Positions 954-22,238 of a DNA stretch of 33,760 nt are shown here, piece by piece. The DNA is from a virus: positions 1 to 33,760 of IMG/VR virus record IMGVR_UViG_3300030060_003713, one strand, 5' to 3'. Below the pieces are notes generated by a model. The model had not been told where the DNA came from and ran no database searches. It saw nothing but the letters and a program-made list of their open reading frames with translations. The first letter of the stretch is position 1, and every line of letters begins with the position of its first letter. Position numbers and translations under genes: made by a program.

Positions 954-1364
954 ATGGCGGCACTAAGTCAAGACACAAGGTTAGTTATGACAATTTTATT
1001 TGTCGGAACAGTTAGCGGAGCGAATGTATATTTCTATTCTGCTTACGGATTGAATTTCCCATACGGGGCATTAGCACATTCTGTTCTGTTTGGGCTTATT
1101 ACAGTGGGTGGAATAATGGTTATGAAAGCATTATTTGATTTATCACTAAATGATAAGATTGAGATAAGATTACTAGACAGACAAATTGAAAATCACTTCC
1201 AAAGACTACAAAGAGAAGAACAAATAAAATCAAAACTACAAGATAGTATGAAACAGTTTGGTACAGTAAGGCGTGAAAACTGGCGAAGCGGAGTCATGGC
1301 CACTACTGAAGACTATGACGACAACACAATAGGAAATGAATTCTTAGCAACTATACAACAATAG
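954..1364 (+). CDS. Membrane protein with two N-terminal transmembrane helices
   Basis: This 136-residue protein starts at ATG 954 after GAGGT. Two hydrophobic segments are clear, at about residues 10-30 (VMTILFVGTVSGANVYFY) and 38-62 (AHSVLFGLITVGGIMVMKAL). A charged helical, probably coiled-coil region covers about 65-110 (DRQIENHFQRLQREEQIKSK), and the tail is acidic. A two-helix hairpin with a cytoplasmic charged domain would suit a holin-like or membrane-anchoring protein, but no family is recognised. It is the first gene of a block that also holds a second membrane protein, an acetyltransferase and a small GTPase, inside the virion operon. Confidence 0.65.
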   Translation: MAALSQDTRLVMTILFVGTVSGANVYFYSAYGLNFPYGALAHSVLFGLITVGGIMVMKALFDLSLNDKIEIRLLDRQIENHFQRLQREEQIKSKLQDSMKQFGTVRRENWRSGVMATTEDYDDNTIGNEFLATIQQ

Positions 1365-1375
1365 GTTGTGGTTGA

Positions 1376-1594
1376 TTGGTCTTTGGCGACATAATGGGCT
1401 TTAGTGAGTCCGACTATGTATATAATCAAAGTCGGGCGCATTCAGCAGATATGTTCTTCATAAAAATGAAGATGTATTTTTGGGGAAGTTGCGTTGGACT
1501 ATCAGCCTTTTTGATAGGCAATATCATGGGAGTCTTTGACATCAATATAATGGGTTGGATTATAGAGAGGGCTAAGGATATTTGGGGGCATTAA
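1376..1594 (+). CDS. Small single-span membrane protein
   Basis: This 72-residue ORF starts at TTG 1376; an in-frame ATG at 1394 is an alternative, and neither has a strong ribosome-binding site. One hydrophobic segment is visible at about residues 33-52 (MYFWGSCVGLSAFLIGNIMG), followed by an amphipathic end (IIERAKDIWGH). Twelve bases separate it from the two-helix membrane protein upstream and one base from the next gene. It could be a partner of the upstream protein or a small lysis or anchor protein. Function unknown. Confidence 0.55.
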   Translation: MVFGDIMGFSESDYVYNQSRAHSADMFFIKMKMYFWGSCVGLSAFLIGNIMGVFDINIMGWIIERAKDIWGH

Positions 1595-1595
1595 T

Positions 1596-1913
1596 TTGTG
1601 GAAAAATATTCTTAAAAGCACTTTAGAAGATTTAGGAATAGTAGAGCCTTTTAGTTGGATTTCTAAAGATAGAATAAGCGACGGAGAAGCAGAATTGGTT
1701 GATGGCGAATATGGAATTTATTGGCAAATTAATCAATTTGGCTTAGAAAGGGGATATAGAAATAAAGGCTTAGGTGAAAAATACCTAAGAGAATTTATTG
1801 ACTATTTAGAAAGTGAATTTGAAACCAATGATATTCCTTTAGTTCATATGCCCGTAGGTGAAGCAATTACTTTTTGGGAACGCATGGAAGGAAAGGGATT
1901 AGTGATTGTTTAA
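1596..1913 (+). CDS. Minimal GNAT-type N-acetyltransferase
   Basis: This 105-residue protein starts at TTG 1596. The segment RGYRNKGLGEKYLREFIDYL (about residues 52-71) matches GNAT motif A, the acetyl-CoA pyrophosphate loop with its R/Q-x-x-G-x-G/A pattern after a beta strand. Near the end, AITFWERMEGKGLVIV matches motif B, where a Phe-Trp-Glu helix precedes the last strand. At 105 residues it is shorter than most GNATs (about 140-180) and lacks much of the N-terminal part. The substrate is unknown; small GNATs acetylate proteins, peptides, antibiotics or polyamines. Its stop codon overlaps the start of the GTPase gene (TAATG), so the two are probably translated together. Confidence 0.65.
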   Translation: MWKNILKSTLEDLGIVEPFSWISKDRISDGEAELVDGEYGIYWQINQFGLERGYRNKGLGEKYLREFIDYLESEFETNDIPLVHMPVGEAITFWERMEGKGLVIV

Positions 1914-2575
1914 TGTCCATAATGACAGGTTTTGCCATACTAGTTGGTGAAGCAATTATAGGCTTTTACAAAAAAGTTCATGCAATTAACTTTGGAGTCT
2001 ATGGTTCTACAATGGTTGGTAAAACAACTTTGAGTCATCAACTTAGAACAAGGGGAGAAGTTCCCACGATAAAAGATAGAACCGTTGGTTTACATAGAGC
2101 CACTAGAAAGAATGTTAAGATTGATGGTAGTTCTCACACAATTAAGAGTGCTGACTTAGGAGGAGAAGCAATCTATTGGAAAGAATGGGTCAAAGATATG
2201 CAGAAGCGTAAAGTTAAATATATTATTTTTATGATAGACCACAGACACTTAGATTCACCTTCTAACTTAGACCATCAATTAGCATGGAAGTTTTTAGTAG
2301 ATACTATTGTAGCAGATAGATGGCCTTCGGGCAGAAAGAAGAAAGAGGCCGACTATCCTATGGCAGTTGGTATATGGGGAAACAAATATGATATGTGGGG
2401 AGAGAAGTATAAAAGTGATAAACCCATAGACAAACATGAAATATTTGAACCGTTTACATATGGAATGAGGCAGTTGAATGACAAGGGAATACCTTGTTTT
2501 AAATATATAGTATCGGCCAAGTCCGACCCTGAAATGGTGTATAAAGGAATTACTAGTATGATAAAAGATTATTGA
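1913..2575 (+). CDS. Arf/Ras-like small GTPase with hydrophobic N-terminus
   Basis: The start is ATG 1913, in a TAATG overlap with the acetyltransferase and preceded by GTGATT; this gives 220 residues, a usual small-GTPase length. All five G motifs are visible in order: G1 P-loop GSTMVGKTT (31-39), a candidate G2 threonine in DRTVG (T57), G3 DLGG (81-84), G4 NKYD (157-160) and G5 SAK (201-203). The DLGG form resembles Arf, Sar and SR-beta GTPases more than Ras. The residue after DLGG is Glu rather than the usual catalytic Gln, so hydrolysis may be slow or differently stimulated. The first 20 residues are hydrophobic or amphipathic, as in Arf or SR-beta, and suggest membrane association. Small GTPases are rare in viruses, and the role here is unknown. 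Confidence 0.8.
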   Translation: MSIMTGFAILVGEAIIGFYKKVHAINFGVYGSTMVGKTTLSHQLRTRGEVPTIKDRTVGLHRATRKNVKIDGSSHTIKSADLGGEAIYWKEWVKDMQKRKVKYIIFMIDHRHLDSPSNLDHQLAWKFLVDTIVADRWPSGRKKKEADYPMAVGIWGNKYDMWGEKYKSDKPIDKHEIFEPFTYGMRQLNDKGIPCFKYIVSAKSDPEMVYKGITSMIKDY

Positions 2576-2585
2576 GGAATAAAAG

Positions 2586-3218
2586 ATGTATCAGCAACCG
2601 AATTTAATAAATACGCAACAAGCAAAGAACGCTTTTTTGCCTAAACTACAACAGTATAGAGCAGTTGGGGCAATTGAAGATTATAAGTTTGATGCGCTAA
2701 AACCAAAAAAACAAATGAAAGAAATAAGAAAGGTATTGTTACCGGAAAAGAAACAAATATTGTTTTTAAAATATGGTCACAAGTTTAACTTTAAAGATAG
2801 ATGTGTAGTATGTGGAACTCATCATGTTTGGGAAGCAGGAGATTACTTAAGACCACCAATACCGCTAGATAAAGTAGAGAAAGGAAGACCACTTAGAGGA
2901 ACTTACTGTCCTAGACATGCGGCTATTCACAAACAAATGGAAATGCTACAACAACAAATATTAGCAGATGAACATGGACTAGATTTTAAAGCATTTATTC
3001 CTAAAGCCAAAATGCCTAATATGTTAAAAAGACAACAATTAAACAACTTAACGAAAGAAGATGTTATGAGGCTGACTAGCATGGGATGGAACATAACGCC
3101 ACCAACACCGGCTACAGATGCAGAAACGCAAATGGCAGAAATAATTAGATTGATGGCAGAAATACAATTAAATACAGAAAGAGTTAATTATCTAATTAAA
3201 GGAGAACAGGGTGAATGA
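2586..3218 (+). CDS. Hypothetical protein with putative CxxC/CxxH zinc site
   Basis: This 210-residue protein starts at ATG 2586. Residues C73 and C76 (CVVC) and C108 and H111 (CPRH) form a spaced pair that could bind one zinc ion, as in treble-clef or HNH-like zinc sites. The CPRHAAIH segment superficially recalls HNH nucleases, but the rest of an HNH active site is not evident. The ends are helical and Gln-rich (KQMEMLQQQI; AEIIRLMAEIQ). It follows the GTPase gene by 10 bases and its end touches the start region of the next gene. It may be a nucleic-acid-binding or structural protein; function unknown. Confidence 0.6.
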   Translation: MYQQPNLINTQQAKNAFLPKLQQYRAVGAIEDYKFDALKPKKQMKEIRKVLLPEKKQILFLKYGHKFNFKDRCVVCGTHHVWEAGDYLRPPIPLDKVEKGRPLRGTYCPRHAAIHKQMEMLQQQILADEHGLDFKAFIPKAKMPNMLKRQQLNNLTKEDVMRLTSMGWNITPPTPATDAETQMAEIIRLMAEIQLNTERVNYLIKGEQGE

Positions 3219-3219
3219 T

Positions 3220-3888
3220 ATGGGAATTTTAGGAACAAGTAACGGAACGGTCTTGGCATCAGTACAAGCACAAAGCGACCAACAATTCAAGAATGTAAAT
3301 AATTTACTTTCTTTACAAGACAACCATGTTGAAGAGTTCTTTCAATATCATGGTCAAATGTTTTTGACACAGATGGAGAAACTTATGGAAGATGTTGTAG
3401 AAAGAGTAGTTAGTAAAATGTTGGCTAAGTTACAATTTACAACTGATTCTACAACAGGAATGTTAAGAATACATAATGATGCCATGAGAGAATTTGAAAA
3501 GATTACCTCAGAAAACATTGAGTTAGATATTAAGAATATATTAGATGCGGCTATCAATACAGAAGTTGTTAATCAAAGAAAGTTGGCAAAACAACAATAC
3601 TTAGAATCTCAAGGATTTAGTGGTGGTGGCGGTATGCAACAGATGGCACAACCAACCGCAGGTATGGCAATAGCCGGACTAACAGGACAAACTCAACAAT
3701 ATCAACAAATGCAAGGTGCTATGAATAATGGTAGTGGTTATCCTATTCCACCATCGGGAACTGATAATTATGGAAGGCCATATTGGATAGATGCTCAAGG
3801 GCAGATGAGTTACGAACCTCCACAAAGCGGTTTAGGTTTAGGTAGTGCTATACAAAAAGGTGCGGCTTGGGCTAAATGGTTAATGTGA
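3220..3888 (+). CDS. Hypothetical Gln/Gly-rich structural-type protein
   Basis: ATG 3220 is preferred over the in-frame GTG 3211 because GGTGA at 3210-3214 lies at the right spacing; this gives 222 residues. The N-terminal 120 residues are helical (VEEFFQYHGQMFLTQMEKLM and a following long helix). From about residue 125 the sequence becomes Gly/Gln/Met/Pro-rich and low in complexity (GGGGMQQMAQ, QQYQQMQGAMNNG), and it ends in a short amphipathic helix (AIQKGAAWAKWLM). No family is recognised. Such two-part proteins often occur as scaffold or internal virion proteins, but that is only inference from composition and position. Confidence 0.6.
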   Translation: MGILGTSNGTVLASVQAQSDQQFKNVNNLLSLQDNHVEEFFQYHGQMFLTQMEKLMEDVVERVVSKMLAKLQFTTDSTTGMLRIHNDAMREFEKITSENIELDIKNILDAAINTEVVNQRKLAKQQYLESQGFSGGGGMQQMAQPTAGMAIAGLTGQTQQYQQMQGAMNNGSGYPIPPSGTDNYGRPYWIDAQGQMSYEPPQSGLGLGSAIQKGAAWAKWLM

Positions 3889-5812: not shown

Positions 5813-6931
5813 ATGGCAATAGCATCATCACCAAGCGACTACACATCTATTGATGTGGACTATTCAACAGGAAAAGGATTCTATACTGACAAAGATGCAG
5901 TATCGGATATGTTACAGATACCTGCATTTTCATCTTCTACTTTCCCTAGTCAAGCACAGGTCGGTAAGATTATAAAAAACATAGAAGGTATAGTTGATGA
6001 TAAAGTAAAGAGGTCATACAGGCCAATTATTCACAAAGATGAGTTCCATGATTTTGAATTTGTTAGACATCCAATGCAAGCATATTATGGAGGCTATGTA
6101 GGGTTCATACAATTAGCCACAATGAAACTAAAAAAAGTTATATCTCTAAAGGTTTGGCAGGGTAACAGTTATCTTGAGTTAGCATCAGCCCAAGCAAGCG
6201 TCACATTAAACCCCGACAACTTTCAACATCTAAGAAAAATAACTTTACAACTTCCTAATAGTGGTGATACCTTTGAATTGTTTTTTCAAGGGGAAGGAAC
6301 TATGTCGGCTCATAATACATTTGACAGTAGATTTGGAGCAAAGACAACTGCAAGAGATATTTGCCATTTAATTAATGAAGAGTTTCCTGCGAATACTGCT
6401 CAATTTACAGGGGCTAATAGAGAAAAAGAAAGAACTTCTTCGCCTAATAATCTAAGCATAAGTGATTTCTTTTACGCTTCTATTGACCCCGATGATGGAT
6501 ATAAGATTAATATTTCAAGTCTATTGGCAGGGGAAGATGGTTCGGGATGCACAATAACAGTTACAGATAAAGCGGGTCAAGATTCACAATCAACTTCGGA
6601 AGCATTTACAGATAAACAGGATATGAAAAGATTAGGTAGTTTTTGGAGCATCAAGGATGACGGTAGGATATTTTTCTTAAGGGATTATCCATATCATACT
6701 CAAAACTCTATTATTATTACATATGTTGCAGGTTCAAGTCGTGTACCATCGGCTATACATAAAGCAACAACAATGTTAGTTGCGGCTGAATTACTAAGAC
6801 ATGATGACCAAACTATTATGATTGCTGAAACAGGTGGCAATATATCTACTAAAGAAAAGTATGATATTCTAACTAAAGAGGCTATGGATATACTGAAAGG
6901 AAAGGGTGATTTGGTTTATTTACTTGAGTGA
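5813..6931 (+). CDS. Head-tail connector (adaptor) protein, gp6-like, with large insertion
   Basis: This 372-residue protein starts at ATG 5813, preceded by GGAGGT. Residues 31-70 match the typical start of connector adaptors: a short helix after a DKDAVSDMLQ-type motif, then a long helix (QVGKIIKNIEGIVDDKVKRS) ending at an Arg-Ser-Tyr-Arg-Pro turn. Residues 312-331 (PSAIHKATTMLVAAELLRHD) match the C-terminal helix of the same fold. Between them lies an extra beta-rich region of about 200 residues, whereas usual adaptors are about 100-200 residues in total. The gene order connector, small protein, terminator, tail tube supports the call. The adaptor would sit under the portal ring and link the head to the tail. 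Confidence 0.65.
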   Translation: MAIASSPSDYTSIDVDYSTGKGFYTDKDAVSDMLQIPAFSSSTFPSQAQVGKIIKNIEGIVDDKVKRSYRPIIHKDEFHDFEFVRHPMQAYYGGYVGFIQLATMKLKKVISLKVWQGNSYLELASAQASVTLNPDNFQHLRKITLQLPNSGDTFELFFQGEGTMSAHNTFDSRFGAKTTARDICHLINEEFPANTAQFTGANREKERTSSPNNLSISDFFYASIDPDDGYKINISSLLAGEDGSGCTITVTDKAGQDSQSTSEAFTDKQDMKRLGSFWSIKDDGRIFFLRDYPYHTQNSIIITYVAGSSRVPSAIHKATTMLVAAELLRHDDQTIMIAETGGNISTKEKYDILTKEAMDILKGKGDLVYLLE

Positions 6932-12684: not shown

Positions 12685-13788
12685 ATGTATGATACACTTA
12701 TTGGAAAACAGCGTGGCTTAATATTCCCTGTAATGTGTAATGGTCATGTTAGAATAGATTATAGTGATAATGTTCCTAGCACTTCGGATAATCAAGCGTA
12801 TGGTATATTTGCCCACGAAGGTAATTTTACTTTTGAAACAATACTTACTCCATATGACATAAATGGCTTTGGGCAATATTCTGCGACAGCAAGACCAACT
12901 GTTACTGCTACAACTAAGGTAATGCCTAGTGCAATATTTAGTGATGCTAGTAGTGCTGACCCGCAAAGTAATGAATACATGCCAATTGCTAATAGATTAG
13001 TTCATGAAATGAATCTTTTTTCTAGCACTAATCTTACAATAGCGTTGGTAAATTCAACATTACATAATGAGAATCAACCTGCTGAATATAAAATTAAAGT
13101 TACTATAAAATTAGGCAGTACAGACTATACTGTTACAACAGACTCTACTGTAATTAATGCAACTTCGGGATTCGGTTGGTTTTATACTGCTGATACGCTA
13201 GAAGGATTTGATAGAAGTGGAAGAATAACTCATGTTGTTGGAGGGGTTACTGATGGGTCAAATAGCACAACAACAGTTCCGGTTGCTTCTACTGCTAAAT
13301 TTCATGTAGGGCAGGAAGTATTTACAAGAAGTGGATTTACATTTACCTCTTTAGGAACTATTGCTTCGATTAACTCCGGTGTTAGCATTGTGTTAAATAC
13401 TGCCCCATCTAGTAGTATTAGTACAAGTACAAACATTTTTATTTCTGCGTATAAAGACCCTTCATACATCAACAACAACTTTCACATTGCTTGTAGTTAT
13501 AATGAACTTGGTAAAGAAGTAAAGATATTCTTAGATGGACTATTAATTAAGCGTCAAACATTATCCACTACGGACACCTTTTCTATGGCTCAAGAAGATT
13601 ACTTTATCGGGGCTTCTAGTAATAATGGAACAGGAACAGAAAGTGCTATTGCTAACAAACAATTTATGGGAGAGTTACATGAAATGTCTATGGTAAATAC
13701 CACTAGAAAAAAATTCTCAATAAATAATCTTGCTCCTAACGCAGACAGCACATTATTTTACTTTAGATTTGAAGAGGTGGATATATGA
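12685..13788 (+). CDS. LamG / concanavalin-like tail adhesin with inserted beta module
   Basis: This 367-residue protein starts at ATG 12685 after AGGTGAT. Residues 39-58 (YGIFAHEGNFTFETILTPYD) and 266-340 (FHIACSYNELGKEVKIFLDG, then YFIGASSNNGTG and a FMGELHEMSM strand) match the strands of a LamG/concanavalin A-like lectin fold, with the 'x-W/I-x-x-S-Y-x-G-x-x-V-x-I-F-L-D-G' type core. About 200 residues are inserted between the two halves. The inserted part includes one copy of the G-Q/M-x-V repeat module (about residues 190-255) also found in the next gene. Such domains bind sugars, so a receptor-binding role at the tail tip is likely. The stop overlaps the next start (ATGA). Confidence 0.6.
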   Translation: MYDTLIGKQRGLIFPVMCNGHVRIDYSDNVPSTSDNQAYGIFAHEGNFTFETILTPYDINGFGQYSATARPTVTATTKVMPSAIFSDASSADPQSNEYMPIANRLVHEMNLFSSTNLTIALVNSTLHNENQPAEYKIKVTIKLGSTDYTVTTDSTVINATSGFGWFYTADTLEGFDRSGRITHVVGGVTDGSNSTTTVPVASTAKFHVGQEVFTRSGFTFTSLGTIASINSGVSIVLNTAPSSSISTSTNIFISAYKDPSYINNNFHIACSYNELGKEVKIFLDGLLIKRQTLSTTDTFSMAQEDYFIGASSNNGTGTESAIANKQFMGELHEMSMVNTTRKKFSINNLAPNADSTLFYFRFEEVDI

Positions 13789-16700
13789 CTACTTCTACAC
13801 TTGTTGCACTAAGTAGACCTAGTAAGGGAAGTCCTCAAAGTTTTACTAGAACTTGTAACACTAATAGTAATACTACATTAACAAACCTTACCAACCCAAG
13901 TTTATTTATTGGTATGAAAGTTACTGGGGCAGGAATACCCGATGGAACTATTATTACTGCTTTGGATAGCAGTTCTAATGAAGCAACTATAAGCAAAACC
14001 ACTACTGATTCTGCTAGCATAACTGCTACATTTTTTAAGACCGCTTACGATACTCCTACTAATCCACAACTTTGCGTTAGTGCGCTATCTCCCACTTCTA
14101 ATGGTTCTTTAGTAGATACTTTTGGTGTAGCAATAATAGAAGAAACTTCGGGCAATGTAACTTTAACTCCTGTAGGCAGGGTGCAAGTCACAAACTGTAA
14201 TGCTACTGCCGGAAGTTCAAGAGTTACTCTTTCTAGTGGCAATACTGATTCTTTATATGTAGGGCAACAAGTTACGGGAACAGGGTTTTCCACTGGAAGT
14301 TTACCCGATAATAAAGCCGCTAGAATAGAAAGAATTATTTCTAGCACCGAATTTGAATTAACAGAAAAAGCAACATCTAATGCTACCAATGCTACTTATG
14401 TTCTAGGATTAGAACACTCTAATTTATCAGTAACAGAAGGTATTAGAATAAAATGCTTTGATAATTTGACAGGCGTAGGAATTAGATTAAACAGCATTGA
14501 CTTAACAACTACTCATTTATTTGTTATGATACACTCCGATGATGCAAACAAACACCACTTTGCTAAAGTTTCGGAAATATTTACTGATGATATTAACGGA
14601 GATTCCTTTGAGTTTAGGCCAAAACTGGGAGATGAAATAGCAAAGGATGTAAAATTTAAGTTATTTTCTACACCTATACCTACTGATAAAACAATAGCGG
14701 CAATAGGGCTTGGTATAAAAAATACGCTAGCACCTTCCGTTTCAGTGTCAAGACCCTTGTTTTATTTCTTCAATGAAAACTTAGATAAGAAAAATGAATT
14801 AAATCATAATAAAAAATACAATTTGGTTTATTCGGAATTGGATTTTGTGGCTGTAAGTGCAACTCAAGACTCTTTAGGAACTAAAAGTTTTTTTACTACA
14901 ACTCCCGATTTTGGAACTGACATAATAGATTATGGTAGGCATACTTTGAAAACTAAACTCATTGATAGGCTCAAAGACCAAGATAAACCTACTACTAATA
15001 CTAGTAATGAAGGAGAAACGCTATTAACTTATACTCCATTTTCAAGAGATGCCTGTTTTACTAACGCTAGAAGAGATGATAATGATACAATAACCGATAC
15101 TGCAAGTCAAGATTATGACGGCCAATATAGATATTTGACCTATGGGTTTTCAAAAGATAGGGCAAATATAGCGCATAATGTTATTGACCATATAATGTAT
15201 GAATCTATGGGAGCAAAGTCATCAATAGTTAAGTTAAAACTCACCGACCCATTTAAAATAATGTCCAAAAAAATAAGTGACGAAGAACCAATTAGAATTA
15301 GACATAGACTATTTATCGGAGACTTTAATGAGTTTAAATCAATAGGGGCTAAAATAACTTCTAATCCTAGCGGCAATACTTATGCGACAACAACAGACCA
15401 TGATTTAGGAAGTTACTTGAATGTAGGTGATGAAGTTAGAGTTGGGTCAAGAATAGTTATTGTTCAAAGCATAGCATCAATAAGCGGAAATACGCAAAAC
15501 ATTACTTTTAGAAGTCAAAATAGATTAGAAACTGAATCAATATTTACAACAGGTTCTTACACTTTAGCAAACGATAGTGTTCTTGAAAGAAGGGCATACA
15601 ATAAAAAAGACAAAACTTTGTTTACTGACTTTCCACTAGTGTCCGATAGAACTTCTAGTTTATTTGTTAAGTTAGTTTCCGACTCTCTTAGTGAGTTATA
15701 TGCTAGCGTAAGTGCTATTGATGTGAATAAAAAACTTATAACATTGTCTTTTTCCGATAAGGGCTATTTTGATTCCGACGGTAGCACTACAAACGAAGCG
15801 GCCTATCATTCACAAGGAACTATGTTGGATTATATGTTTGGGAAGTATATGATATACTCAGAAAAACTAAATGGAGAAATAGAAAGAATAGATGTTTACA
15901 AAGAAAATACTATGACTTTCGTTGATTTAGAAGCAAGAAGTAATGTTAGAAAATTAATCTCTCCTGTAATATCTAAAAATAGTTTATTTTCTCAAGATAT
16001 AATTTATTCTACTAATAGCCCATACAATCAACTAACTACTGCGGGTGCTAATTTTACTTGTGCTTTTGATAGCAAAACATTAACAGCATCTACTAGTATA
16101 ACTTTAACGGCAGGTACACAGGTTCACTTACAACATGCTTCGGGAGTAATGAGTTACATAGGAGAAATTGCCGCAACTGTTACTGGAACTGGCTTTACTT
16201 TAGTAGATAACGCAAGGGCTGAAGGAACTACTTTGGCAGGATATAAAGAATCTAATAAAAATTATATGCTAAATAAAGCATTGTCTAGCAATACATTAGT
16301 CGAATCCGCAACTTCTTTAAGTGGTGCTTCTAACAAAGGATTGTTTTTCAACTCCGGTGTTAAGATTACTTCTACCGGAACAGAAGGAGATATTTTAACT
16401 GGTAGTAGTGGAAGCATACATGAAAATGCAGTTGGATATGAAATAAGTGATGTTTCTAATATGTTGAATGATTCTCACTTTCAATCTCGCCTACACAATG
16501 ATGTTATTTTAACAGGAACTACTGCTTCGGGAGATGCAACAATAACAGCCTTATCATCCACTATTAATTTATTTGCAGGAATGGAAGTTTCGGGAACTAA
16601 TATACCAACAGGAACAACAGTTAGTAGTATTACAAATAGTAATACTTTGGAGTTGAGTGCAAACGCAACTGGAAGCGCAACAGAAGTAAGTTTAACCTTT

Positions 16701-19700
16701 TCTAACAAAGCGACTTTTGATACAATAAACACACTAATGGATTTTGAAATAGTAGGAACTAGGTCAGCAGGAGCAAATGCAGGAACAATAGTTACAATCG
16801 CTCCTTATATGCCCTTGACACTGGGAAGAATAGATATAAATTATGCCAATACCCAAGACACTACTTTTGCCAAAGCCACTTTAGGAAAAACTTCTCACGA
16901 TTTTACGACGAGTAGGAGATATATAGATGTAGATAGTGATGAAGTAGTATCGGCCTATAATCATATTAGGGGTCATCGAAACCTGCATGGAAAACCTATT
17001 TACATTGATGGTAAGTTTTTAGCAAATGTACTACAGGCAGAAAAAAGTGTTGAATTAAAGTATACTACAAACTGGACAGGAGGCAGTACAGCCGCTACTG
17101 TTGCAGTTACTAGCGGGCTATCGGAGGGACTGGTTTTATCGGGAGATTCCGATGTGAATACTTTAACTATAACTGCCATAGATAGGGCTGATACAAGTAG
17201 TCCGTTTAATATAACTCTAAGCGGTAATGCAGGTGGGTCGGGAGCAGGAAGCGCAGACATAACTTTTTCTTTACCCTCTACTCATTCTAGGATATATTTA
17301 GACAGGGAAGTGGGTTTACTAGAAATCCCTTGTAAATTAAATTCTAATAAAACTATAACTGATGTTTCTTCTACAGAAAAAATTTATGTTGGTATGAAAG
17401 TTACCGGAACAGGAATACCATCTAACACAACGGTTACTTCAATTGACAGCACTAGTAAGATTACTATTAGTAATGATGCTACTAATTCTAATGCCGATGT
17501 ATCGCTAACCTTTGTTATTGCTAGCGGTACTGTAATTGACAGGCTAACCGGCCATCATAACCAAGATTCTTCAAGAGAAACTTCTAAACTAACTCATGAG
17601 TTTAATCTATTAAACGGAGGACACTTACATACTGGAAAAACTATATCCCTGTTACATCCAAAATTAAATTTAACTAACGCATATAATATAACTAGTGTAT
17701 TGGATTATAGAATGGGAGGAGAACAACCTTTCCATCAAAGAACAAACAGTAGTGGAGGTAGTGCTTCTAATAAAGCAGTTAATATATTAGGAAGCAAGTT
17801 AGATGAATTTGGAACTTATCAATCTAACTTTGGAGCATCTAATTATAGATTAAACAACATAGAGAGAGGAAACTACAATAAATCTAAAAACTACCTTTAT
17901 GAACCTAGCGATATATCATTTTATACAGAAACGCTAAGTAAAATAAAATATTATGCTAGTGCATATAGATTTGGTTCGGGATATTATACTGATGGTTTCC
18001 TGCAAAATAATATAATAGGTACTGATATTTGTGGAATGAATATTATAGGGCAGGGGTCAATACAAACCTATAGTGGTGGTGCCTATTTAGAAGTGCTTCA
18101 TGAAAGTTTCTTTGGAAATCAAAATACAAATTTTATGGATATATTTAGAATAGGGCAAAAAATTGTAGCGTCGGGAATACCCGATAATACTTTTGTTGGT
18201 AATATAATAAATATAGGAGATACTACTACAACAGCAAGGGAAGTAAGACTTACGAACTTGGCGGCAACTACAGTAAACGCTACTGCTAGTGCTAGCGGAG
18301 TTAATGCTAAATTCTATGAGTTTGATAATAAAAGATTAATTGAATCAAGAGGATTTATACCTAGCATCGGAGATAAATTTTACGACCCTAATACGCTAGA
18401 GTCAAAAAGCGGTGATTATTATGGCATTGATAACTACCAACGAGGAGGGAAACAAAACATATTCTTTACTCCTCTTCCTATAAATAATGGAGTATTCCAA
18501 ATTACTGAAACAACTTTAGGAACAAAATTAAGAAATGCTCATGCATATAAAGATAAGATTGAGCATTTAGACCCTAAAATTGCTAGAATGTTTTTATTTA
18601 GCAATAGTGATATATTACCATATTCTTCTACTAGAAAGGATAGTTTGATGAATAAAAAAGTAGAGAGGAATTTACTTAACTATTCTATGCTTACTTTACA
18701 AGACGCTAAATTAACTAATCACTCCGATTTAAAAGAAAGAGTGCTTGGTGCTACAAATACTATCACTAGATTAGATAACTCTTATAGTGCATTTAATATT
18801 AAAGAAATAAGGGATAATAAACTAATAAATGAACTTAAGCGATTTAGTTTAATGAGATTAACAGAAGTAGTTTTTGATGTTTTTTATAATCAGTTTGACC
18901 CCGAAAATGTGCCAAGCAATGATAAAAATATAGGAACTATAGGTAACTACCCTAGATTTTTATTATCACAAGTTACTAATTCCAGTGGAAATGCATTGAG
19001 CATAGGCTCGGTAAGCGGAACAACAGTAAATACGGTTCAAGCAAGTGATGGTAGTGCTTCTAGTGCAAACAACTTGGTTCAAAAGGATATATTAGTAGAT
19101 AAAGCAGGTAGATTTATTGGTATTGTAGATAGTATAGGTACAAATACGATAGTTACTGCTGTTAATGCTTGTAAAACAGATTTAGCGACTGACTCTAGTG
19201 GAGATTATTATGCTCCTAGACTTAACACTAGAGGAGGTTCTTCACCAAATGGGGCTTTCATGGAACTTTACAAAATAGATTTTGAAACTCAAGATTTGGC
19301 TTCTTCTAGCAATACATTTGGTGCAGGTTCTATTACAGGCTACAATACAGAAAATGATTTTGTAGAAATTGATGGAGCAATTAATTTACTACAAATGGGA
19401 ATTATGCGAGGTTTGGCTAGTGATGGAGGAAGTTATGTTGCTTCAACAGCCAATAGAGGTAATGCTGATAGTGGATATGGGGGTAATAGTTCTACTTATA
19501 CTGATACTACCTTTGCTACAAGAAAAGGAGTTAACGCAATGAAAGAAGACCAAATAGACAACGAAATGGAAGATTGTTCTATTGTCTTACCATTTGGTTT
19601 AGCGGGGGCTACAGCATATTATTCACACTTAGCACAAATTATTTCCGACGGAAATCCAACCATATCCGATTCTAGTTTTCTAAATAGTCAAATATTTCCG

Positions 19701-22238
19701 GTTTTAGGAAAGTATGCTTTTCAACCCAATAGCATTAGCACATCATCGGGTTTTAGAAACGGTGCTGATTCTCTTAGCCTTCTTAATAGTGCGACGAACA
19801 CAAGTGCGATGAACACTAATGCTACAACTAGAATGTTACAAAACCACATACCTGTATTCTTTGATAGATTCAATATAGTTGGTGGAAGTGGGGCTAAGGC
19901 CGCTATAGGAATGACTGGCACTAAAATAGGAAATTCTATAGGAATAAATGTAGATGGAACTGAAAAGGAAGTTAGATTCGGATTAGTTACTCGAACAATA
20001 CATAGCGACAATACTCTTGACCCTGCCGGTTTCGCTACTAAAACCTTAGCGAGTGAGCCAACAACAAGTAGTAATGCGCCAACTTATGATAATGATGCAG
20101 ATGGAGTATTTGCCGGATTTAAACCAACGCTAAAAATAGATACTGGTTATATCATAGAGGCCACTTTTAATACTACTACTGCTACTGCGGCAAAATTTAC
20201 AACAACTAGCACTATATCCGGTAATGAAACTATTGGTTCGGACACGCATCTTTCTATGTATGTGCAAAGTAGCCATGTTCCTAAATTTACAAGAACATAT
20301 GAGTTGAATACTTCCGCAAGTCCCGATGAACTTAGAATGACCGCTAATGCGACTTCTGCGGGAACAGACTCGAATGTTAGAGTTAGCAGAAACTACATTG
20401 GTAGTGACACAGCAACCAACGGAACTGAAGTTCATACTTTAGCGTTTACTGATACAATGATACTGAAAGGAGAAACAGGAAGGTCTGCATTTTCAGCATT
20501 TGTTAAATCGGATAATATACACTGGTTAAGTTTTTTAGATTTAACAGGGTGTTATTTAGTGGGAGAAGAAGTAAAGAGTTATAATTCTACAACAGAATCA
20601 ATAGAAGACTATGAATCATCCGACATAGGGGGTTCTCATGGTTTAGGTTCGGCACAAAATCAAGAAAGATTTTCTATAAATGACGGAACACCTAAATATA
20701 TTCTATATGTTATTTCTCACGAAATAGATACTACTAGGCAAGATAGAACTCATATTATAACCGTTAGCGGTACTTTCCCCGATGCCGCTTCTAGCGGTAC
20801 TAGTTCTACTAGATTTAAGTCGTTTAGAATAATGCAACCTAACCATACTTGTTTTTATGATTTTAGTCCTAAAAACATTAGATTAAATCAACTTTCTTCT
20901 AAATACACAAAGAAACCAAAAGAAGATTCGATGTACGATGCACGGATAAACCATTTTATGTTTAAAGATAAACCTGCTCCACGCTCACAGGAAGGAGCAA
21001 ATGAAGGGGTTTTGTCAATGTATGTAGTAGTAGACCCCGATGGACAAACTAGTGATGGTAATTTAGTGGTAAGTGACCCTACTTCCTTGAGAAATAACAT
21101 TATGAAAGGAGGACAATTTAGAATGAATATTAGTGATGGGGATAATAATAATTTAACAAACATTGAATTTGTTGATGAAGGTGATGCTGTACGGCTTAGC
21201 ATGACTTTAGAAGACCAAAAAGAAATGTTAGGAGTAGTTTCAATATCAGAAACTATTGATGTTGTTGTTGATGCTGAAAACACTCAACTAGGTAAAAGAG
21301 CATTAATAGGTTCAGTTGTTTCAGTTTGTCGAGAGGCTGATACATTAATTAATGAAATGTTAGAAGAAAATGATGTTGAGTTTAATTTAACTAAATCACC
21401 TTATCCTTACTTTGTTGCCCCAAACTTTAGGGGAGTGGATTTATTTTCTGCAATACAATTTTTATTAGCCAAGAAAGAAAAAACATTGTTAGAAGAAGAT
21501 AATATATTTACAATAAAAGAAACTAAAGAGTCCTCTTTATTTCCTAATATTTTCTTCAGTACATCTAACCAAAATACTGACATATTATCTTACAGTAGAG
21601 AAAGCAACAAGTTTGACACCTTTAATGAAATCCTTGTTTTTGGTAAATCACACAAAGCGCAAAGAAAACACCTCAAGAACATAAAGAGAAAAGGAAGAAA
21701 AACCCTACAGGTTTTTGAAAATGAATTGATAAATCAAGAAGATGTAGATAAAAGGGCTTCTGAATTACTTAAAATACATAGTGACGAAAATTACGGATTA
21801 AAACTTACAGTAGGGCATAGGGGGCTTTCTCAAACTAAGGTCGGGGATGTGGTTACAGTAGAAATACCCGAAGAGGACATACCTAGAAGTGAATTTATAA
21901 TTACAGAAATACAACATAATTTACAGGGAAGTTTAGATTTAGAACTAGGAAGTTACACTAAAGGGCTAGAAGATAGGTTTGCAGAATTAGCAATTGCTAA
22001 CCAAAATATAAATAATAAAGTTAGGGAAGAATCATTTAACAATAATGAAATAGCCTTTGATTTCTTAGAAGATATTAACATTAAACCTATTAAGTTTAAA
22101 ATACAGAAAAAATCAACCCCTGCCGGAGCATTTACATTAGGAACCAACTCAACAGATTCGGAAACGCTAAATACAAATACCAATGCACTGAATATAGGAG
22201 TGACCACTTTTACTACATTATTGGAGGAAGAATTTTGA
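13785..22238 (+). CDS. Giant baseplate hub / tail adhesin with repeated beta modules
   Basis: This 2817-residue protein starts at ATG 13785, overlapping the previous stop. At least five copies of a 60-70 residue beta module centred on G-M/Q-x-V-x-G-x-G-I-P are spread through it, with central glycines near residues 43, 160, 932, 1203 and 1457; others look decayed. The C-terminal part, about residues 2500-2740, resembles tail hub proteins of the gpD/gp27 type: a helix pair (EADTLINEMLEEN), a FNEILVFGKS strand, then KVGDVVTVEIPEEDIPRSEF and EITEIQHNLQGSLDLELGSY-like strands. It thus probably combines the hub under the tape measure with a very large surface adhesin. The unusual length is a single open frame without interruption. 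Confidence 0.7.
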   Translation: MTTSTLVALSRPSKGSPQSFTRTCNTNSNTTLTNLTNPSLFIGMKVTGAGIPDGTIITALDSSSNEATISKTTTDSASITATFFKTAYDTPTNPQLCVSALSPTSNGSLVDTFGVAIIEETSGNVTLTPVGRVQVTNCNATAGSSRVTLSSGNTDSLYVGQQVTGTGFSTGSLPDNKAARIERIISSTEFELTEKATSNATNATYVLGLEHSNLSVTEGIRIKCFDNLTGVGIRLNSIDLTTTHLFVMIHSDDANKHHFAKVSEIFTDDINGDSFEFRPKLGDEIAKDVKFKLFSTPIPTDKTIAAIGLGIKNTLAPSVSVSRPLFYFFNENLDKKNELNHNKKYNLVYSELDFVAVSATQDSLGTKSFFTTTPDFGTDIIDYGRHTLKTKLIDRLKDQDKPTTNTSNEGETLLTYTPFSRDACFTNARRDDNDTITDTASQDYDGQYRYLTYGFSKDRANIAHNVIDHIMYESMGAKSSIVKLKLTDPFKIMSKKISDEEPIRIRHRLFIGDFNEFKSIGAKITSNPSGNTYATTTDHDLGSYLNVGDEVRVGSRIVIVQSIASISGNTQNITFRSQNRLETESIFTTGSYTLANDSVLERRAYNKKDKTLFTDFPLVSDRTSSLFVKLVSDSLSELYASVSAIDVNKKLITLSFSDKGYFDSDGSTTNEAAYHSQGTMLDYMFGKYMIYSEKLNGEIERIDVYKENTMTFVDLEARSNVRKLISPVISKNSLFSQDIIYSTNSPYNQLTTAGANFTCAFDSKTLTASTSITLTAGTQVHLQHASGVMSYIGEIAATVTGTGFTLVDNARAEGTTLAGYKESNKNYMLNKALSSNTLVESATSLSGASNKGLFFNSGVKITSTGTEGDILTGSSGSIHENAVGYEISDVSNMLNDSHFQSRLHNDVILTGTTASGDATITALSSTINLFAGMEVSGTNIPTGTTVSSITNSNTLELSANATGSATEVSLTFSNKATFDTINTLMDFEIVGTRSAGANAGTIVTIAPYMPLTLGRIDINYANTQDTTFAKATLGKTSHDFTTSRRYIDVDSDEVVSAYNHIRGHRNLHGKPIYIDGKFLANVLQAEKSVELKYTTNWTGGSTAATVAVTSGLSEGLVLSGDSDVNTLTITAIDRADTSSPFNITLSGNAGGSGAGSADITFSLPSTHSRIYLDREVGLLEIPCKLNSNKTITDVSSTEKIYVGMKVTGTGIPSNTTVTSIDSTSKITISNDATNSNADVSLTFVIASGTVIDRLTGHHNQDSSRETSKLTHEFNLLNGGHLHTGKTISLLHPKLNLTNAYNITSVLDYRMGGEQPFHQRTNSSGGSASNKAVNILGSKLDEFGTYQSNFGASNYRLNNIERGNYNKSKNYLYEPSDISFYTETLSKIKYYASAYRFGSGYYTDGFLQNNIIGTDICGMNIIGQGSIQTYSGGAYLEVLHESFFGNQNTNFMDIFRIGQKIVASGIPDNTFVGNIINIGDTTTTAREVRLTNLAATTVNATASASGVNAKFYEFDNKRLIESRGFIPSIGDKFYDPNTLESKSGDYYGIDNYQRGGKQNIFFTPLPINNGVFQITETTLGTKLRNAHAYKDKIEHLDPKIARMFLFSNSDILPYSSTRKDSLMNKKVERNLLNYSMLTLQDAKLTNHSDLKERVLGATNTITRLDNSYSAFNIKEIRDNKLINELKRFSLMRLTEVVFDVFYNQFDPENVPSNDKNIGTIGNYPRFLLSQVTNSSGNALSIGSVSGTTVNTVQASDGSASSANNLVQKDILVDKAGRFIGIVDSIGTNTIVTAVNACKTDLATDSSGDYYAPRLNTRGGSSPNGAFMELYKIDFETQDLASSSNTFGAGSITGYNTENDFVEIDGAINLLQMGIMRGLASDGGSYVASTANRGNADSGYGGNSSTYTDTTFATRKGVNAMKEDQIDNEMEDCSIVLPFGLAGATAYYSHLAQIISDGNPTISDSSFLNSQIFPVLGKYAFQPNSISTSSGFRNGADSLSLLNSATNTSAMNTNATTRMLQNHIPVFFDRFNIVGGSGAKAAIGMTGTKIGNSIGINVDGTEKEVRFGLVTRTIHSDNTLDPAGFATKTLASEPTTSSNAPTYDNDADGVFAGFKPTLKIDTGYIIEATFNTTTATAAKFTTTSTISGNETIGSDTHLSMYVQSSHVPKFTRTYELNTSASPDELRMTANATSAGTDSNVRVSRNYIGSDTATNGTEVHTLAFTDTMILKGETGRSAFSAFVKSDNIHWLSFLDLTGCYLVGEEVKSYNSTTESIEDYESSDIGGSHGLGSAQNQERFSINDGTPKYILYVISHEIDTTRQDRTHIITVSGTFPDAASSGTSSTRFKSFRIMQPNHTCFYDFSPKNIRLNQLSSKYTKKPKEDSMYDARINHFMFKDKPAPRSQEGANEGVLSMYVVVDPDGQTSDGNLVVSDPTSLRNNIMKGGQFRMNISDGDNNNLTNIEFVDEGDAVRLSMTLEDQKEMLGVVSISETIDVVVDAENTQLGKRALIGSVVSVCREADTLINEMLEENDVEFNLTKSPYPYFVAPNFRGVDLFSAIQFLLAKKEKTLLEEDNIFTIKETKESSLFPNIFFSTSNQNTDILSYSRESNKFDTFNEILVFGKSHKAQRKHLKNIKRKGRKTLQVFENELINQEDVDKRASELLKIHSDENYGLKLTVGHRGLSQTKVGDVVTVEIPEEDIPRSEFIITEIQHNLQGSLDLELGSYTKGLEDRFAELAIANQNINNKVREESFNNNEIAFDFLEDINIKPIKFKIQKKSTPAGAFTLGTNSTDSETLNTNTNALNIGVTTFTTLLEEEF
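13851..18310 (+). repeat. Dispersed protein-level repeat of a G-M-x-V-x-G-x-G-I-P beta module
   Basis: Five related coding segments lie at about 13851-14036, 14184-14405, 16500-16710, 17322-17525 and 18120-18310. Each has a leader strand, a V/I-G-M/Q-x-V core, a GIP or GF turn, a T-x-V/I-T-S-I strand and a closing Ser/Asn/Ala/Thr-rich strand. Copies 1, 3 and 4 are the closest to one another. The DNA has diverged, so these are old duplications and not recent tandem repeats. Modules of this form are frequent in marine phage fibres. Confidence 0.65.

Follow-up and report, generated by a model that had tools for sequence, protein, structure and literature searches.

A predicted Arf-like small GTPase encoded in the head module of marine, probably archaeal, tailed viruses

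The product of a 220-residue open reading frame in a 33,760-nucleotide viral sequence (IMG/VR record IMGVR_UViG_3300030060_003713, hereafter the window) is a Ras-superfamily small GTPase with a predicted G-domain fold. The gene occurs in hundreds of marine virus contigs, among the genes for head morphogenesis. The best explanation of its fold, G motifs, selection and gene order is an Arf-like protein, with a role and partners that we infer from them: a membrane-tied switch of the head-morphogenesis module that would act in assembly, maturation or exit of marine, probably archaeal, tailed viruses. We give this reading a probability of about one half.

The G domain and its structural relatives

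Homologues of the GTPase were collected from IMG/VR in a stepwise walk from the window protein to ever more distant copies, and the set was cross-checked by one scan with the capsid protein and one with a DNA motif. This yielded 189 distinct full-length sequences, the most distant of which is 58% identical to the window protein. As an earlier note on this DNA had described, the motifs G1 to G5 follow one another in order within one domain (Table 1). The residues invariant in all 189 sequences are G31, G36, K37, T38, T39, T57, D81, G83, G84, W92, D109, H112, N157, K158, D160, S201, A202 and K203. The gene is under strong purifying selection, with dN/dS of 0.03–0.09 against six relatives, and the combination of motifs and dN/dS is far beyond chance. 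The start codon overlaps the stop codon of the upstream reading frame by one base and the next gene begins 10 bases downstream, which places the GTPase in a tight series of genes on the same strand.

Table 1 Features of the GTPase gene and its neighbours in the window.
Feature	Positions	Strand	Description
TM136	954–1364	+	Small, conserved membrane protein whose tail is charged and coiled-coil-like; precedes the GTPase in every case
TM72	1376–1594	+	Conserved 72-aa membrane protein; invariant RAHSAD
GNAT-like cargo gene	1596–1913	+	Inserted between the genes of TM72 and the GTPase; product starts with the leader MWKNILK
Arf/Ras-like small GTPase	1913–2575	+	220 aa; ATG at 1913, TGA ends at 2575
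N-terminal helix	1916–1978	+	Residues 2–22, hydrophobic, nearly invariant Glu13; putative membrane anchor
G1 / P-loop	2003–2026	+	GSTMVGKT, residues 31–38
G2	2078–2089	+	RTVG (R56–G59), invariant Thr57
G3	2153–2167	+	DLGGE, residues 81–85; Gln in sister lineages at Glu85; invariant Trp92 at D+11
Family motif	2237–2248	+	D109-H-R-H112, following the fourth strand; invariant at D109 and H112
G4	2381–2392	+	NKYD (N157–D160)
G5	2513–2521	+	SAK (S201–K203)
ZnP	2586–3218	+	Conserved putative zinc-binding protein, C73xxC76...C108xxH111; always downstream of the GTPase
cc225	3211–3888	+	Conserved structural-module protein
p372	5813–6931	+	Conserved protein of PHROG 17057; by its position, probably a head-tail connector

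A single-sequence profile scan with the window protein returned MMR_HSR1 (E = 0.003), SRPRB (0.01), and Roc and Ras (both 0.02), all short of the cut-off. Across the family, E values for these models fall to 1e-5, and 27 of 27 close members are hit by NCBIfam small_GTP; profile support is thus weak for the single protein and stronger for the family. SRPRB (PF09439) matches 77 of 91 homologues with a best E of 3e-5. Membership in SR-beta, with which the viral protein shares an N-terminal hydrophobic segment and the DxxG form of G3, was rejected, the window protein scoring 15.4–15.7 bits against a family cut-off of 25 bits. Pfam Arf (PF00025) has no match to the window protein at E ≤ 1 and matches 36 of the 91 homologues (best 5e-5). 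No PHROG family fits the window protein, and a search of the GTPase against defence systems gave no match.

The AlphaFold2 model calculated from the 91 homologues (pLDDT 77.6, pTM 0.77) superseded an earlier, poor model from 27 close homologues only (pLDDT 54.6). It shows a long N-terminal helix at residues 2–22, followed by the strand and helix alternation of a G domain; the switch regions are of low confidence, with blocks at pLDDT 53–67. All top Foldseek matches of the model are small GTPases, with Rab33 and Ras first (E 2e-9). VIA-align, a DALI-like comparison, places Arf6 first with Z of 17.4 and rmsd of 2.5 over 161 residues, followed by Arf1 at 17.2; the top 23 rows are all Arf or Arl (Z 16.1–17.4), Rab and Gtr are nearly tied at about 16, and the Asgard archaeal HodArfR1 aligns with Z of 16.3 and rmsd of 2.5. 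The G domain described from the sequence is thus supported by structure prediction. Among viral protein models (BFVD), the top matches are giant-virus Rab/Ras proteins, which are likewise virus-encoded small GTPases but belong to viruses of eukaryotic hosts, are of Rab/Ran type and share 12–20% identity with the window protein.

The Arf G3 pattern is DxGG with a tryptophan at D+11, as is also seen in 8oun_A, and here D81, G83, G84 and W92 are invariant in the 189 sequences. This pattern, the TxG in switch I and the best structural matches, Arf and Arl, give the protein an Arf-like lean short of proven membership, since the gap between Arf and Rab is just 1–2 Z units. The Arf-like form described earlier is supported to that extent, but the Foldseek ranking puts Rab33 and Ras ahead. 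With Arf, Arl and Sar, including the Asgard ArfR proteins (8ouk, 8oun), the viral GTPase shares the G-domain fold at Z of 16–17, DxGG[Q/E] with Trp at D+11, TxG in switch I, a GKTT P-loop and an N-terminal helix directly before the first strand. It differs from them in identity (16–22%), in the Glu that replaces Gln in many viral members, in its family motif D-H-R-H, and in being encoded in a virus head module. G5, CAT in Arf, is SAK in the viral protein.

The hydrophobic N-terminus that had been noted is present, both as the helix of the model and as a mean hydropathy of 1.66 over the best 19 residues. Because the near-invariant Glu13 lies in the middle of the helix and the hydrophobic moment is low, it cleanly matches neither a transmembrane segment nor an amphipathic helix.

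Head module, distribution and probable host

In every contig that covers the region, the gene order is ligase-protease-MCP-h3-TM136-TM72-GTPase-ZnP-cc225-p372, and a survey of about 80 close and some 150 distant loci, in which small head-module proteins stand between MCP and TM136, found no departure from it. The names DNA ligase and prohead protease are readings from sequence and position, made without library matches, and the gene of the major capsid protein (MCP) itself lies outside the window. Among nine head-module proteins compared, the GTPase is the most conserved. Across 70 viruses its pairwise identity averages 68.8%; the means for MCP and cc225 are 65.0% and 61.9%, and those for TM136, the zinc protein and TM72 are 55.3%, 53.7% and 50.6%. 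In the zinc protein, for which no confident Pfam family was found, C73, C76, C108 and H111 are invariant. The gene for the putative 829-residue ATP-dependent DNA ligase (866–3352 in L027) belongs to the head module in nearly every contig and immediately precedes that of the prohead protease. A separate observation in the window is a tail-region protein of 2817 residues (13785–22238), whose gene takes up a quarter of it.

Each of 14 long contigs (57–102 kb) carries exactly one copy of the GTPase. The 185-kb contig IMGVR_UViG_3300021958_000021 (184733 bases) carries the head module twice, each time with a different GTPase (L066, L202), and represents a chimeric assembly or else a join between two related viruses. 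No relatives of the GTPase were found in GenBank phages, PHROGs or plasmids, and tblastn against GenBank phages gave no match for the E-type or Q-type GTPase, the ligase, the tail tube or the zinc protein. A scan of bacterial and archaeal genomes returned a single copy, on the 12-kb contig NZMJ01000024.1 (L082) that is binned as Maricaulis; a Maricaulis origin was rejected, as the contig has the full viral gene order and is evidently a mis-binned virus. The view that such GTPases are rarely encoded by viruses is thus supported as an apparent rarity among prokaryotic viruses, but not for giant viruses of eukaryotes, which encode many Rab/Ras proteins. The magrovirus papers that were consulted mention no GTPase; an earlier annotation in papers on Poseidoniales viruses is possible.

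The capsid protein of the clade has 11 matches in GenBank, all of them archaeal viruses (E to 2e-17, 24–27% identity): Haloarcula viruses such as HVTV-1, HCTV-1 and HCTV-5, as well as viruses of Methanofastidiosa and Methanomassiliicoccales. The related HK97-type major capsid protein links the clade to archaeal tailed viruses near Druskaviridae, and the alignment with HVTV-1 and the methanogen viruses is too divergent to seed a wider scan. An archaeal host is well supported, and the previous description as an archaeal virus can be kept in the form of a tailed virus probably of archaea. Poseidoniales as host is a guess. In PMC13108676 the Satyavativiridae of Poseidoniales are described as tailed marine viruses of 87 kb whose capsid protein is Druskaviridae-like; by this description, Satyavativiridae/Adrikavirales (Poseidoniales virus P01, PP497040) fits these contigs. 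The window encodes an ERCC4/HhH nuclease, and searches for PCNA and MCM gave no confident archaeal replication marker. Family B DNA polymerase is present in 13 of the 14 long contigs. In most contigs it looks split, with the halves of PF00136 matched in two different frames, one of about 550 and the other of about 300 residues (the contigs behind L032, L049, L061, L072, L076, L113 and L404), and in two it is a single frame of 948–987 residues (L391, L414).

Insertions to either side of the GTPase gene carry genes for unrelated cargo proteins, and the proteins that were read start with M-W-x-x-[IV]-[LI]-K. The bearers of this leader include GNAT-like and nucleotidyltransferase-like proteins and others without a family; in the loci analysed, the leader type is found on 95 distinct proteins, in 31 groups without detectable similarity past residue 10. 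Of 8900 methionines near a frame start, 90 begin such a leader, against none of 20477 further in. Among 13 long contigs, the seven nearest the window have 2–8 copies each (29 in total), nearly all on one strand; the strict form is absent from the six more distant ones, and the reversed pattern has two matches over all 13. The codons of the leader vary synonymously, which indicates selection on the peptide. Leader-bearing cargo stands beside the GTPase in the window and at L005, L010, L025, L048, L052, L058, L066, L072, L076, L146, L237, L353 and other loci. The N-terminal 53 residues of the GNAT-like cargo protein in the window match PADLOC Csx20 (E 9.5e-6) over a stretch that overlaps the leader. 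Judged from these sequences, the leader possibly serves as an N-terminal targeting signal, either in packaging or in recognition by a membrane or capsid receptor. Its bearers could be clients of the GTPase process, for example packaged and injected effectors. This finding may rival that of the GTPase.

Glutamate or glutamine at residue 85

In the large E clade of the tree, all 57 rows have glutamate at position 85. The DNA motif used in one of the scans included Glu85, and the sequences that it retrieved were never the sole basis for conservation of this residue; the 58 copies in loci retrieved through the capsid protein, independently of the motif, all have it (58/58), and Glu85 is thus genuine. 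The earlier note had proposed that this glutamate points to slow or unusual hydrolysis and that the protein might act as a locked switch. Its fixation in the window's clade is compatible with that proposal. However, glutamine occupies the site in 45 of the 189 sequences, glutamate in all others and no third residue in any, and the E and Q types lie in identical gene order. In a tree calculated with this column removed, the two residues replaced one another at least four times, with two of the changes forced by well-supported branches. The corresponding substitution in Ras, Q61E, is reported to raise intrinsic GTPase activity (PMC10515638, PMC2987813). Together these observations suggest that hydrolysis is probably retained. 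The toggling between E and Q only makes a catalytic function of residue 85 more likely than a switch-locking one, and a switch locked or slowed by Glu85 is very improbable.

Proposed action at the host membrane and alternatives

Its place among the head genes and a conservation that exceeds that of the capsid protein suggest that the GTPase is probably a core part of virus assembly or release. A link to the membrane is suggested by the helix at residues 2–22, its hydropathy and the two adjacent membrane-protein genes. The hydrophobic helix would tie the GTPase to the host membrane, and GTP loading would alter switches I and II for the recruitment of partners, most likely TM136, TM72 and/or the neighbouring zinc protein, together with head components. 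Hydrolysis, with Glu or Gln orienting the water and the zinc protein perhaps serving as activating partner, would release them. In this way the complex would bring head assembly, maturation or exit to the host membrane, as Arf places coats. ZnP is a possible regulator or effector of the GTPase; contacts with the neighbours, ZnP included, are what we infer from a gene order that alone is no proof of contact. The stronger proposal, that throughout a major clade of marine archaeal tailed viruses an Arf-like switch is obligate for head assembly or exit together with two membrane proteins and a zinc partner, is tentative at best. To our knowledge, no tailed virus uses an Arf-like membrane switch.

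The nearest functional parallel, by analogy of layout, is ArvA (Haloferax HVO_3014), an archaeal Arf-like GTPase that drives vesiculation in haloarchaea, has an N-terminal membrane helix and a zinc-ribbon gene in its operon, and whose deletion abolishes vesicles (PMC10927574). The viral GTPase has a similar layout, with its own N-terminal helix and adjoining zinc protein, and it might accordingly be a remodeller that drives, blocks or redirects vesicles in the archaeon, its place in the head module reflecting late expression. The likeness to ArvA ends at layout. The viral contigs have the viral gene order and lack relatives of ArvB and ArvC above the family cut-off: OapB/ArvB (PF09846) is found in none of 15 contigs, OapC/ArvC (PF09845) gives just two sub-threshold matches in the 15, far from the GTPase, and the zinc protein has no confident Pfam match. 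A host-directed gene would also be expected to vary or be lost, whereas the GTPase is single-copy, is kept in 14 of 14 long contigs and stands in a fixed order. Such remodelling is possible, though doubtful, and assignment to the ArvA vesiculating system itself was rejected, there being no neighbouring ArvB or ArvC genes. The MglA/MglB system was rejected as well: a roadblock/LC7 partner gave one sub-threshold match, interrupted by a stop, in one of the 15 contigs.

The GTPase, TM136 and TM72 might instead be virion components, packaged inside the particle or attached to it, that function during entry, for example at the membrane of the new host. In all contigs their genes lie between those of capsid and connector, a location that, like a conservation of the GTPase beyond that of the capsid protein, would suit a virion protein. 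Small membrane proteins in a head module are no proof of packaging, though, and five motifs under strong selection suggest a protein that cycles and not a purely structural one; packaging of this kind is unlikely. The reading of a membrane-tied switch in head morphogenesis remains the preferred one.

Arf/Ras small GTPases are seen as eukaryotic tools for membrane traffic whose roots are archaeal. If the proposed role is true, a fixed, slowly evolving GTPase would belong to the core of abundant tailed viruses of prokaryotes, and virion building or release may involve GTP-gated membrane recruitment. The natural Glu and Gln versions would make the long-argued role of the catalytic residue testable on natural pairs. 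For viruses of uncultured marine archaea, the GTPase would provide a marker gene and a testable membrane step.
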